DNA of 64,000 bases from Tistrella mobilis (lineage in GTDB: Bacteria > Pseudomonadota > Alphaproteobacteria > Tistrellales > Tistrellaceae). The DNA lies in NCBI RefSeq assembly GCF_041468085.1, contig NZ_CP121017.1, positions 124,001 to 188,000 on the forward strand, given 5' to 3'. The position numbers and the translations under genes were made by a program. Shown one piece after another: positions 24,686 to 29,622 of the stretch. Below the pieces are notes generated by a model, which worked only from the letters and a program-made list of their open reading frames with translations, was not told the origin of the DNA and did not search any database. Positions within the stretch are counted from its first letter, which is position 1. Every line of letters starts with the position of its first letter.

Positions 24686-24792
24686 TTCTCGTGCGTTAAT
24701 GCCTTGTCATCCGTGCGTGGATACGCCACCTAAGCCACGTGTTGTAGCTTCCCGGCCGTCGATGCCGGGACATGAACGAAATCGGGATCGTG

Positions 24793-26001
24793 ATGAGCGT
24801 CGAGATCAAAGTTCCGAGCCTGGGCGAATCGGTTACCGAGGCCACCATCGGCCAGTGGTTCAAGAAGGTCGGTGACCGCGTCGAGGCCGATGAGCCGCTG
24901 GTGGAGCTGGAGACCGACAAGGTCACCCTCGAAGTCAATGCCCCCGCATCGGGCGTGCTGACCGAGATCCTGGCCGAGGAAGGTGCCGACGTCGAGGTCG
25001 GCGCCCTGCTGGGCGTGATCGGCGAGGGCCAGGGCGCCGCTGCGGCGAAGCCCGCCGAGGCGCCGAAGAAGGCAGAGGCGCCCAAGGCCGAGCCTGCGCC
25101 GGCCCCTGCTGCCGAGAAGATCCTGTCGCCGGCGGCCCGCAAGGCCGCTGCCGATGCCGGCATTGATGCCGCTTCGGTCGAAGGCACCGGCCGTGACGGC
25201 CGGGTCATGAAGGATGACGTGCAGCGCGCCGCTGCGGCGAAGCCCGCCGCTCCGGCGGCCCCCGCCGCTGCCCCGGCGCCCAAGACGGCCCAGCCGGCCG
25301 GCGAGCGCGAGACCCGCGTGCGCATGACCAAGCTGCGCCGCCGCATCGCCGAGCGCCTGAAGGATGCCCAGAACACCGCCGCGATCCTGACCACCTATAA
25401 CGAGGTGGACATGTCGCAGGTGATGGCCCTGCGCAACCGCTACAAGGACGGCTTCGAGAAGAAGCACGGCGTGAAGCTGGGCTTCATGTCGTTCTTCGTG
25501 AAGGCCTCGATTGCGGCGCTCAAGGAGTACCCGGCGGTCAATGCCCAGATCGACGGCGACGAGCTGATCTATAAGAACCACTATGACATCGGCGTTGCCG
25601 TCGGCACCGAGCAGGGCCTGGTGGTTCCGGTGGTGCGCGATGCCGATCAGCTGTCCTTTGCCGGCGTCGAGGCGACCATCAATGCGTTGGGCGTGAAGGC
25701 GCGCGACGGGAAGCTCACCATGGAAGAGCTGACCGGTGGCACCTTTACCATCTCGAATGGCGGCGTTTACGGCTCGCTGATGTCGTCGCCGATCCTGAAC
25801 CCGCCGCAGTCGGGCATCCTGGGCATGCACAAGATCCAGGAGCGTCCGATGGCCGAAAAGGGCCAGGTCGTGATCCGTCCGATGATGTATCTGGCGCTGT
25901 CCTATGATCACCGCATCATCGACGGCAAGGAGGCGGTGAGCTTCCTGGTGCGCGTCAAGGAATGCATCGAGAACCCGGAGCGGCTGCTGTTCGATCTCTG
26001 A
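24793..26001 (+). CDS. sucB: 2-oxoglutarate dehydrogenase E2 component (dihydrolipoyl succinyltransferase)
   Basis: This 402-residue core subunit has one lipoyl domain (residues 1-75) with the modified lysine in ETDKVTLEV. An Ala/Pro/Lys-rich linker follows, then a peripheral-subunit-binding domain ([32 protein letters not shown]). After a second linker comes the catalytic domain, starting near [19 protein letters not shown] and ending with [17 protein letters not shown], which holds the HxxxDG catalytic motif. The start at 24793 ([13 protein letters not shown]) fits the family; an upstream ATG at 24772 is also open. Confidence 0.96.
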
Positions 26002-26076
26002 TCGGACCGCAGGCCCCTCCCGCGCCCGCCGCCTTCATCCGGCGGCGGGCGTTCCGACTTCTTGAGGATGCATGAG

Positions 26077-27489
26077 ATGAGCGATACCCAATCCTTCGAC
26101 GTCGTCATCATCGGCGGCGGCCCCGGCGGCTATATTGCGGCGATCCGCGCGGCCCAGCTTGGCCTGAAGACCGCCTGTGTCGAGAAGCGCGGCGCATTGG
26201 GCGGCACCTGCCTGAACGTCGGCTGCATTCCGTCGAAGGCGCTGCTGCAGTCGTCGGAGCTTTATGCCGAGACGAAGCACGGGCTGGAAGAGCATGGCGT
26301 GAAGCTGTCGGGTGTCGAACTCGACCTCGCCGCGATGATGACCCGCAAGGGTAAGGTCGTCTCCCAGCTGACCGGCGGTATCGAAGGCCTGTTCAAGAAG
26401 AACAAGGTCGCCTACTTCAAGGGTACCGGCCGTTTCGTCGATGCGACCACCATCGAGGTGGCGCTGAACGACGGCGGCACCGAGACGATCAAGACCCGTG
26501 AGACGATCATCGCCACCGGCTCGACCCATGTCGACCTGCCGGGTGTCGAGATCGACGAGAAGCGGATCGTCAGCTCGACCGGTGCGCTCGAATTCGAGAA
26601 GGTGCCGGGTCGTCTGGTCGTGATCGGCGGCGGTGTTATCGGCCTCGAACTCGGCTCGGTCTGGAGCCGGCTCGGCTCGGCCGTGACCGTGGTCGAGTTC
26701 ATGGACCGGATCACGCCCGAGATGGATGGCGAGGTCTCCAAGCAGTTCCAGCGCATCCTGGGCCGCCAGGGCCTGAAGTTCCGCCTGTCGACCAAGGTCA
26801 CCGGCGCCGATACGTCGGGTGAGGTCATCAAGCTGACGGTCGAACCGGCCAAGGGTGGCGATGCCGAGACCATCGAAGCGGATGCCGTACTGGTCGCCAT
26901 CGGCCGCAAGCCCTATACCGAGGGGCTGGGCCTGGAGGCTGTTGGCATCGAGACCGGTCCGCGCGGCCGGATCGAGGTCGATGATCATTTCCGCACCAAT
27001 GTGCCGAACATCCGCGCCATCGGCGACGTCATCAAGGGCCCGATGCTCGCCCATAAGGCCGAGGAAGAGGGCGTGATCGTGGCCGAAATGATCGCCGGGC
27101 AGTCGGGTCATATCGACTACAATCTGATCCCGGGCGTGATCTACACCTGGCCGGAAGTGGCCAGCGTCGGCCGGACCGAGGAACAGCTGAAGGCGGAGGG
27201 CATTGCCTACAAGCCCGGCAAGTTCCCCTTCTCTGCCAACAGCCGCGCCCGCGCAGTGGGCGAGACCGACGGCTTCGTCAAGATCCTGGCCGATGCCGAG
27301 ACCGACCGGATCCTGGGCGCGCATATCATCGGCCCCGATGCCGGAACCCTGATCTCCGAGTTGGTGCTCGCCATGGAGTTCAAGGCCAGCGCCGAGGACA
27401 TTGCCCGTACCAGCCATGCTCACCCCACCCTCGAAGAAGCGGTGAAGGAAGCGGCGCTGGCGGTCGATGGCCGCACGCTGAACATGTAA
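26077..27489 (+). CDS. lpdA: Dihydrolipoyl dehydrogenase (E3)
   Basis: This 470-residue FAD enzyme reoxidises the lipoyl groups of E2 and passes electrons to NAD. It shows the FAD loop [21 protein letters not shown] and the redox disulfide [32 protein letters not shown] is the NAD loop, and [20 protein letters not shown] is the second FAD motif. The interface histidine lies in [16 protein letters not shown]. The start at 26077 has GAGG nine bases ahead; an earlier ATG at 26062 is possible. It closes the TCA block and is followed by hairpins. Confidence 0.97.
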
Positions 27490-27497
27490 AAGAAAGA

Positions 27498-27521
27498 TCT
27501 CGTGACAAAAATTTCACGAGA
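27498..27521 (+). repeat. 8-bp inverted repeat after lpdA
   Basis: TCTCGTGA (27498-27505) and TCACGAGA (27514-27521) flank an 8-nt A/T-rich loop, 8 nt after the lpdA stop. There is no T-run. It may be a 3'-end protector ahead of the main terminator, or an operator. Confidence 0.45.
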
Positions 27522-27534
27522 CAATTCGGGAACG

Positions 27535-27594: not shown

Positions 27595-28056
27595 TCAGCG
27601 GGTTCTGCGGATCTCCGCCACAATCTGTTGCCGGGCCTCAAGAGATGCATCGGCCAGGGTCTCGACGAACATGTCGATCATGAGATCGGCTGAGCGGCTG
27701 CGGATCGATCGCGCCTCGTCGAAAGCTGCATGCAGGGCGGCGCGGTTGACCTCGGGCCGTTCAATCTCGGCGATGACGGTGATCATCGCCTGACGGAATG
27801 CCGTGTCCAGCGCCTCCATTCCGGGGTGCCGCGCCTCGTACAGGGCGGTCAGCCGGGCACCTTCTGCCGGCGGCAGGCGGCTTGAGATCATCTCGACCAG
27901 ATGTGTGGCGCGCGGTGCCAGGTCCCGACCGAAAGGACGCGGCGGTTCGGCGGCAAGCAGATAGACGGCAACCACGAGATTGGCTGCCACCGACAGGATG
28001 AGCGCCAGCCGTTCCACCCCGGGGCGAGGCAGCCGGCGGATGAGGGTGCGGATCAC
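27595..28056 (-). CDS. Periplasmic heavy-metal sensor/resistance family protein (CnrX/ZraP-type fold)
   Basis: The protein has 153 residues. A short basic cytoplasmic tail is followed by a signal anchor, LALILSVAANLVVAVYLLAA (about residues 17-37), and then a long alpha-helical periplasmic region. The helix pattern SRLPPAEGARLTALYEARHPGMEALDTAFRQAM and EIERPEVNRAALHAAFDEAR fits the metal-resistance sensor family (CnrX, Spy/CpxP/ZraP-like helical hairpins). Possible metal ligands are scattered His and Met residues; no cysteines. Its start overlaps the preceding membrane-protein stop by 4 nt. It is the last gene of a four-gene sigma operon, where it would sense the signal and act on the anti-sigma protein. 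Confidence 0.75.
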   Translation of the reverse strand: MIRTLIRRLPRPGVERLALILSVAANLVVAVYLLAAEPPRPFGRDLAPRATHLVEMISSRLPPAEGARLTALYEARHPGMEALDTAFRQAMITVIAEIERPEVNRAALHAAFDEARSIRSRSADLMIDMFVETLADASLEARQQIVAEIRRTR

Positions 28057-28463
28057 CGGGCGGCTCCATCAAGCAGAATAAGATCGCTGTCAAACAACAG
28101 GGTCATCATGGCTGCCCCCTCTGTGGTGCCGGACGGGTCGTGCAGGCCGATCGCAAGCAGGATGGCGGCCGCGCTGGCCAGGGCCGCCAGCGGCCATCCG
28201 ACACGACCTGCCCTGGCCGGGCGCCGGCGGGATGTTTCCAGCCGGTATCCTACGGCGGCGATGGCCGCGGCGATCTCCTGCTCCCTGACCTGTGGGGACG
28301 TTTCCAGGATGGCGGCATCCAATGCGCCTGCCCGGGCAAGCGGGGCAAGCAGCTCCGGATGGGCTGCCAGACAGGCGCGGGCCGCTAGCTGCCGGTCTTC
28401 CGGCCAGCGCGAGATGTCAGCGCCCCAGGCATCGAGCAGCCGGCAGAAGCTGTCTGGGGTCAT
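28053..28463 (-). CDS. Small single-span membrane protein, probable anti-sigma factor
   Basis: This 136-residue protein has an N-terminal cytoplasmic region of about 93 residues (MTPDSFCRLLDAWGADISRWPEDRQ), one membrane span near PLAALASAAAILLAIGL, and a short outer tail. It overlaps the sigma gene stop and the sensor gene start by 4 nt each, so all three are made together. Size, topology and place match anti-sigma factors of ECF systems, but no zinc anti-sigma HxxxCxxC motif is present. The W-G-x-x-x-x-x-W-P opening is seen in similar alphaproteobacterial proteins. The role is inferred from context. Confidence 0.65.
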   Translation of the reverse strand: MTPDSFCRLLDAWGADISRWPEDRQLAARACLAAHPELLAPLARAGALDAAILETSPQVREQEIAAAIAAVGYRLETSRRRPARAGRVGWPLAALASAAAILLAIGLHDPSGTTEGAAMMTLLFDSDLILLDGAAR

Positions 28464-29035
28464 GATCCGGTCTCCTTGCGGCCGGCGCGGGCGTCCGGGT
28501 CGATGGGGGTAAGGCTGCGCCGCAACTTGCGGCGCGCCCGGGCAAGCAGGCTTTCGAAGGCATCTTCGCTGATGTCCAGAATCCGGGCGCAGTCGCGGCC
28601 GGCAATGCCTTCGTAATGGAACAGAACGATGGCGGCGCGCTGGCGCTCTCCCAACTGATCGAGCCCGGCCTGAAGCAGGGCATCGCGTTCCGCGCCGATC
28701 AGGCGCGTGAGGGCGTCGGGTGTTGTATCGGCGACGGTATCCGCGCTCTCCAGCTCCAGCGCAGCCGGCCGCCGCCGGTGATCGAGGGTCAGGTTCAGCA
28801 CGATGCGTGCGAACCAGGGTGTGAAGCCGCCACGAGCCGGGTCGAAACGTGCGGCATGGGTCCATAGTCGCAGAAAGGCATCCTGCGCGATCTCGTCGGC
28901 ATCGGCGGGATTGCGGCCAACACCCCGGGCTATGCCGATGGCGCGCCGCATATGGCGCGCCATCAGCCGGGCGAAGGCGGCGTGATCTCCTGCCGCCACG
29001 CGGCCGACCAGGACGTCGTCTTCGGGCTCATTCAT
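28460..29035 (-). CDS. ECF-type RNA polymerase sigma factor
   Basis: This 191-residue sigma factor has region 2 (AAFARLMARHMRRAIGIARGVG, then ADADEIAQDAFLRLWTHAARFDP and FTPWFARIVLNLTLDHRRR) and region 4 (LDQLGERQRAAIVLFHYEGIAGRDCARILDISEDAFESLLARARRKLRR). Its ATG lies 3 nt after the stop of the EF-hand gene, and its stop overlaps the next gene by 4 nt. This order suggests control by the membrane protein and periplasmic sensor downstream, comparable to CnrH with CnrY and CnrX. Its target promoters are not visible; autoregulation from the 29357-29622 gap is likely but no clear -35 was found. Confidence 0.92.
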   Translation of the reverse strand: MNEPEDDVLVGRVAAGDHAAFARLMARHMRRAIGIARGVGRNPADADEIAQDAFLRLWTHAARFDPARGGFTPWFARIVLNLTLDHRRRPAALELESADTVADTTPDALTRLIGAERDALLQAGLDQLGERQRAAIVLFHYEGIAGRDCARILDISEDAFESLLARARRKLRRSLTPIDPDARAGRKETGS

Positions 29036-29038
29036 GCC

Positions 29039-29356
29039 TCACTCGGATCTGCGGGCGTCCCATTCCGCCTGGGACAGACTGCCATCGCCATCGGCATCGA
29101 GCGACCGGAAGCGGCGATCGAGCATTTCGGTGCGGCGCCCTTCCGGCAACTCGGCAAGACGCTTCGCCGCCCGGCTCTCGCCGGCAGCGATCTCGGCCGA
29201 CACCATCCTGCCCCATTCTTCGCGGCTGATGGCTGCATTCCCGTCGGTATCGATCGAGGTGAAGCTCCGTGGCTCGGCAGCGCCGCCATGACCGGGCAGG
29301 CCCGCGGCAAGGGCAAGGCAGGCGGTCAGGAGAAGGCGGCGGTGATGGCTGGTCAT
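29039..29356 (-). CDS. Secreted EF-hand protein
   Basis: This is a 105-residue protein with a signal peptide (MTSHHRRLLLTACLALAAGLPGHGGA) and two canonical calcium-binding EF loops: DTDGNAAISREE and DADGDGSLSQAE. Both keep acidic or Asn ligands at loop positions 1, 3 and 5 and Glu at 12. The loops are joined by a charged helical stretch, so it would form one paired EF domain in the periplasm. It is the first gene of the sigma operon, 3 nt ahead of the sigma start. It could bind calcium or buffer other divalent metals; its link to the sigma system is inferred from the operon. Confidence 0.85.
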   Translation of the reverse strand: MTSHHRRLLLTACLALAAGLPGHGGAAEPRSFTSIDTDGNAAISREEWGRMVSAEIAAGESRAAKRLAELPEGRRTEMLDRRFRSLDADGDGSLSQAEWDARRSE

Positions 29357-29622
29357 CGGATATCTCCGGTCTGGTTGGCGTGATTCGTCGGCGGCCCCGG
29401 CAGCCCGGCATCTGCCGCTCATTCCGTCTCTACGGACCGGGGCAGGGCTTTCCGTCGCGGGAAATCGGCAGGCGTCGTCGCCGTCGTGCCGTCCGGGCAG
29501 GCAGGGCAAACCCCTTCTTCCCGCGACGGGCCTTCTGATTCGGGGCGAAGCCGGGTATCGTGCGTCGCGGCTGTCCTGTCCTTGCGGCACAGCCATGCGT
29601 GTGGAGACATGGGATCGACGGC

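Follow-up and report, generated by a model that had tools for sequence, protein, structure and literature searches.

An EF-hand protein gene leads a conserved ECF sigma factor module in Alphaproteobacteria

The four-gene operon at positions 27595 to 29356 of the window (the whole 64,000-nt stretch of Tistrella DNA that we analysed) belongs to a conserved alphaproteobacterial module and is no one-off. The reading that we regard as probable is that of an autoregulated ECF sigma factor module in which the EF-hand protein acts as a Ca2+-responsive feedback component and a CnrX/Spy-fold protein acts as the gate. Clear routes from receptor to transcription are lacking in bacterial calcium signalling, and one EF-hand/ECF circuit has been published, that of Caulobacter. 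The EF-hand/ECF pairing in this one species and sets of sigma factor, anti-sigma factor and CnrX-fold protein were already known. The present analysis adds the module of four genes, the range over which it occurs, its promoter and candidates for the partner of SigV, part of which may be contained in the large ECF classification. Roughly half of the examined family groups keep the pairing, and the promoter predicts targets. With two candidate link genes and such a promoter, the question of how the sigma factor is linked to the membrane becomes testable.

The four open reading frames of the window run on the minus strand from 29356 to 27595, and all were found where the original prediction had placed its operon. 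The gap between the EF-hand stop codon and the sigma factor start is 3 nt and the next two junctions are each 4-nt overlaps, as had been claimed. The first gene (29039..29356) encodes a 105-aa EF-hand protein with a signal-peptide-like N-terminal hydrophobic stretch and two EF loops (Pfam EF-hand_5, 1.1e-8). It is followed by a 191-aa ECF sigma factor (28460..29035) with sigma2 and sigma4 domains (Sigma70_r2, 8e-18; Sigma70_r4_2, 2.9e-10) and by a single-pass membrane protein of 136 aa (28053..28463), a putative anti-sigma factor for which the Pfam scan found no family. The last gene (27595..28056, GTG start) encodes a 153-aa membrane-anchored periplasmic protein of the PF13801/CnrX/Spy superfamily (Metal_resist PF13801, 1.4e-15), a putative sensor or adaptor. 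An intrinsic-terminator-like hairpin with a T-rich tail lies 3' of this gene (27497..27522, minus strand). The convergent neighbours (24772-27489) resemble genes for 2-oxoglutarate dehydrogenase E2 and dihydrolipoyl dehydrogenase; the one closer to the operon stops ~106 nt from the operon's 3' end, with the hairpin in between.

A profile of the cassette-type sigma factor was used to search 387 alphaproteobacterial genomes and 249 genomes of one Caulobacterales-like order, in which 228 of the 249 genomes carry such a sigma factor, mostly one each. The neighbourhoods of 203 distinct sigma factors scoring >180 bits were examined. The sigma factor is followed by a membrane protein of the same type in 193 of them and by a PF13801-type protein in 189. 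Since the same order recurs across Alphaproteobacteria, the arrangement is far beyond chance. An EF-hand ORF ending ≤300 nt upstream on the same strand was present in 117 of the 203 cassettes, and 30 of 61 family groups have such EF-led cassettes. In these counts, genomes of the Caulobacterales-like order are over-represented, and some family groups are defined by group codes and others by NCBI names. Comparative genomics thus shows the EF-hand/sigma pairing to be conserved, and the EF-hand gene, far from being absent in all relatives of the window's operon, leads the cassette in many. None of 20 other ECF genes of the same class had any of the three partners; the partners were likewise absent around weaker sigma matches, except for one locus cut by a contig end. 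In the three Tistrella genomes, the EF-hand gene is kept as cassette leader, and all EF-hand_5 matches at E<0.05 fall in the leaders of two cassettes. The window's genome has just two PF13801 genes, and these lie in the same two cassettes. Fifteen other genomes, picked for having an EF-led cassette, contain ~2 EF-hand genes each, which puts chance adjacency near 5e-4.

The EF-hand gene is absent from 86 of the 203 cassettes, and its presence requires at least 21 state changes on the sigma factor tree compared to 58-71 in the shuffles listed, suggesting that the core of the cassette can work without it. Apart from RND pump genes in Azospirillum, no shared alternative leader was apparent when the sequences of the EF-less cassettes were read by eye. 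The second, distinct cassette of the window's genome (L083; G000:C4, about 1321900-1323800) has all four gene types; its EF-hand protein has three recognised loops and its sigma factor is ~46% identical to that of the window. In a Roseitalea locus (L036, 3038-5377), an inserted gene for a small secreted protein separates the EF-hand gene from the sigma factor gene.

When spaced tetramers in the DNA ahead of the first gene were counted without bias, the motif GCGACGGAA-N14-CGTT emerged. The window carries the variant GCGACGGAA-N15-CGTA ahead of the EF-hand gene (29458..29431, minus strand), with a group-specific ECF -35 element, GCGACGGAA, at 29450..29458 and a -10 element, CGTA, 15 nt after GGAA at 29431..29434. 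This promoter is kept in all three Tistrella species; the distance to the gene and the flanking intergenic sequence have diverged. Of 110 EF-led cassettes, 50 have GACGGAA-N14/15-CGT ahead of the first gene, as do 13 of 85 cassettes without an EF-hand gene; shuffles expect 0.05. With a relaxed motif, 44 of the 110 EF-led loci had a site ahead of the EF-hand gene and 2 of the 110 had one ahead of the sigma factor gene, and in those EF-less cassettes that have the motif it is placed directly before the sigma factor gene. The location of the motif ahead of the first gene suggests that the EF-hand gene heads the sigma factor's own autoregulated operon. The promoters of the EcfG general stress response have the spacing GGAAC-N16/17-CGTT. 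The dominant form found here, GGAA-N14-CGTT with a conserved GCGAC extension, does not have this spacing. The second Tistrella cassette, L083, has GGAA-N12-CGTA at its promoter, which does not clearly fit the motif.

No second target was visible in Tistrella. Each of its genomes has 4-7 copies of the motif, as many as of the reversed control. A wider Tistrella regulon was considered and set aside: the motif sites outside the operon lie inside long ORFs, and the operon site is the only one both common to the three species and placed before the cassette. In the Caulobacterales-like order, the motif count exceeds the reversed control, and in five genomes the motif also stands before genes for a CusB/HlyD-type adaptor and an AcrB-type RND pump. 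The gene preceded by GCGACGGAA-N14-CGTT in L279, L292, L294, L296 and L299, all of one genus-level group, encodes an RND efflux adaptor and is likely a further target of this sigma factor group. Other genes behind the motif in this order, identified by Pfam on one representative of each, encode another HlyD, TonB-receptor-like proteins and RcnB and, in another family, a beta-lactamase-like protein (L252, L253, L256, L267, L270), a DUF1800 protein (L251) and a di-haem peroxidase (L255, L283, L284). In Azospirillum (L032, L033, L034), a long gene, of RND-pump type as judged from its sequence, stands immediately 5' of the EF-less cassette on the same strand. The common theme of these neighbours is envelope and efflux, and from the efflux targets found in relatives the signal may be a stress on the envelope or on efflux.

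The published circuit is that of Caulobacter vibrioides, in which CaBP, a periplasmic EF-hand protein, is encoded upstream of the ECF sigma factor SigV (PMC13171946, 2026). In that work, cabp was induced by EGTA and by acid, SigV was found to drive its own gene and cabp, and CaBP altered sigV expression; two genes were described and the membrane link to SigV was left as a question mark (PMC13171946). The cabp promoter determined by 5'-RACE, GGAAA-N13-CGTTCA, has exactly the spacing of the motif found here, and the published cabp primer, which reads GTCCATTGGCGCGACGGA and contains GCGCGACGGA, supplies the GCGAC extension (PMC13171946). The Procabp5 primer was found exact and in place among close Caulobacter relatives (L215, L217 and L219); in these loci, the sigVForw primer matches with one mismatch, 15 nt ahead of the sigma factor start, and the sigV del 5' primer with 1-2 mismatches. 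The published primer sequence was absent from all Caulobacter genomes in the searched set, so the orthology rests on how the primers fit the close relatives. L215, L217 and L219 lack the cabp promoter string, but GGAAA-N12/14-CGTTCA was present in L216 and L224. Judged by these sequence matches, the published cabp-sigV locus is orthologous to members of the module. In L215, L217 and L219, the sigma factor gene is followed by genes for a membrane protein and then a PF13801-like protein, and these two genes downstream of the sigma factor are candidates for the missing SigV membrane link.

The published 5' ends place the sigV promoter and start inside cabp, and the two genes were reported as separate transcripts (PMC13171946). 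By this account, the EF-hand and sigma factor genes would be two independent, adjacent transcription units, which we consider very unlikely for the module: in the window 3 nt separate the two genes, the motif precedes the EF-hand gene and only in 2 of 110 loci the sigma factor gene, and it is the EF-less cassettes that carry it directly before the sigma factor gene. In the chief rival to a feedback role, the EF-hand protein would serve purely as output: induced by the sigma factor, it would act on the envelope or buffer Ca2+ and have no signalling role. The position of the EF-hand gene behind the sigma factor's own promoter, its dispensability in 86 of 203 cassettes and the occurrence of the same motif before unrelated envelope and efflux genes in relatives are all consistent with such an output. 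However, among all possible targets it is the EF-hand gene that is repeatedly found directly upstream of the sigma factor gene, in 30 family groups, and CaBP changes sigV expression in Caulobacter (PMC13171946). We therefore judge pure output to be rather unlikely and prefer feedback by the EF-hand protein.

The EF-hand protein itself was predicted to have two intact calcium loops. Loop 2 (DADGDGSLSQAE) is canonical, and loop 1 (DTDGNAAISREE) keeps its ligand positions but has Ala rather than Gly at position 6, which makes the description slightly generous. The same Ala is found in one sister species, and T. mobilis has the canonical DTDGNGTLSRTE. Two other identities for the protein were rejected. 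Lanmodulin gave only a weak match (0.0026); the loops of LanM have proline at position 2, which the Tistrella EF loops do not. A match to the effector XopAW (8.7e-8) reached 32 bits against 120, far under the cut-off, and reflects general EF-hand similarity.

The resemblance to a Cnr-type set that had been proposed is borne out for the sigma factor and for the last protein. The best solved-structure match of the sigma factor was CnrH (4cxf, 4e-13); other ECF sigma factors follow closely, so this is likeness rather than orthology. The structure model of the membrane protein confidently predicts a four-helix N-terminal cytoplasmic domain, and a hydrophobic segment at ~88-107 forms the single membrane pass, leaving a short periplasmic tail. 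The family shares a (Y/W)GAD..RWP motif, and its membrane helix carries a GxxxG pair, whose first Gly is replaced by Leu in the protein of the window. As the original prediction held, the protein has no zinc motif: HxxxCxxC, the mark of zinc-binding anti-sigma (ZAS) factors, is absent from it and from the downstream membrane proteins of the screened cassette loci. No similarity to CnrY was detectable, and no sequence or fold similarity to solved anti-sigma factors was found in searches that had no positive control and for which small helical domains are hard. From its position and topology, we infer that the membrane protein is an anti-sigma factor. In L007, L016 and L233, it is short (85-107 aa), divergent and without the YGAD..WP motif; its shortening in several lineages suggests that the N-terminal part can be lost.

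The PF13801 protein was modelled as a membrane helix followed by a helical hairpin (pLDDT 87). In a fold search, the top eight hits were NccX/CnrX, with probabilities of 0.99-1.00 and E-values of only ~0.1, followed by ZraP and Spy. A profile search matched Spy (3e-6), NccX (9.4e-5) and CpxP (2e-4), and also CnrX. Residues conserved across 189 homologues are one Arg and, within the membrane helix, a Ser and an Asn. The metal ligands of CnrX are His42, His46, Glu63, His119 and Met123. Given that its nearest relatives are CnrX/NccX and CnrH, that in related genomes the module has RND efflux genes at or under it and that in one of these the motif precedes an RcnB-family gene, the module could be a true Cnr-type system that senses a transition metal (Ni, Co, Zn or Cu). 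The ligands argue against this. No His, Cys or Met is conserved across the 189 sensor homologues, and the columns aligned with NccX His119 and Met123 are unconserved even within Tistrella, where the window Met at the His119 column is Ile in both sister species; the N-terminal ligand positions of CnrX were mapped by eye only. Transition-metal sensing is therefore improbable, and the label "periplasmic metal sensor" in the original prediction, inherited from the family name, is unsupported.

We propose that, in the autoregulated module, the membrane protein would hold the CnrH-like sigma factor at the inner membrane as its anti-sigma factor. The CnrX/Spy-fold protein, anchored beside it, would read an envelope signal and gate this hold. 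Once freed, the sigma factor would transcribe its own operon from the GCGACGGAA-N14/15-CGT promoter and, since the EF-hand gene leads that operon, the EF-hand protein would be the first product, and an abundant one, once the system fires, and would be exported to the periplasm. There, it may feed back in a Ca2+-responsive manner, tuning the sensor or the signal, as reported for CaBP and SigV in Caulobacter. The sequences show the conserved gene order, the promoter ahead of the EF-hand gene, the orthology with cabp-sigV and the fold of the sensor; the anti-sigma activity, the contact between sensor and anti-sigma factor and the calcium step are what we infer here. A more far-reaching version is put forward tentatively, as possible but doubtful: a calcium-gated ECF pathway, widespread in Alphaproteobacteria, in which the EF-hand protein, induced by its own sigma factor, would report the Ca2+ status of the periplasm to a CnrX-fold sensor lacking a metal site and, through it, to a new class of zinc-less membrane anti-sigma factor, also setting RND efflux.

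Several known systems resemble the module in part. The last protein belongs to the same superfamily as the CpxP/Spy adaptors but is membrane-anchored and encoded with an ECF sigma factor. CnrYXH of Cupriavidus metallidurans shares with it a CnrH-like sigma factor, a CnrX-fold sensor anchored by an N-terminal membrane helix and, in relatives of the cassette, a link with RND efflux genes. In contrast to CnrYXH, the gene order differs, an EF-hand gene is added, the CnrX metal ligands are unconserved, similarity to CnrY was undetected and no RND genes adjoin the operon in the window. The RpoE8 operon of Azospirillum brasilense consists of a sigma factor, a hypothetical protein and a "periplasmic heavy metal sensor" (PMC12826043); the passages that describe it assign no function to RpoE8. 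By that annotation it has the same three-gene core, and the Azospirillum cassettes L032-L034 were recovered here; unlike the window operon, these have no EF-hand gene and lie behind an RND pump gene. The closest counterpart is CaBP-SigV. Two genes on separate transcripts were described there, whereas in Tistrella and in L215, L217 and L219 two further genes follow, and the Tistrella EF-hand protein, with two loops, is shorter than CaBP. In both systems, the gene for a secreted EF-hand protein immediately precedes that for the ECF sigma factor on the same strand and has the same type of promoter ahead of it, and by this analogy a calcium-linked response of the Tistrella operon is plausible.
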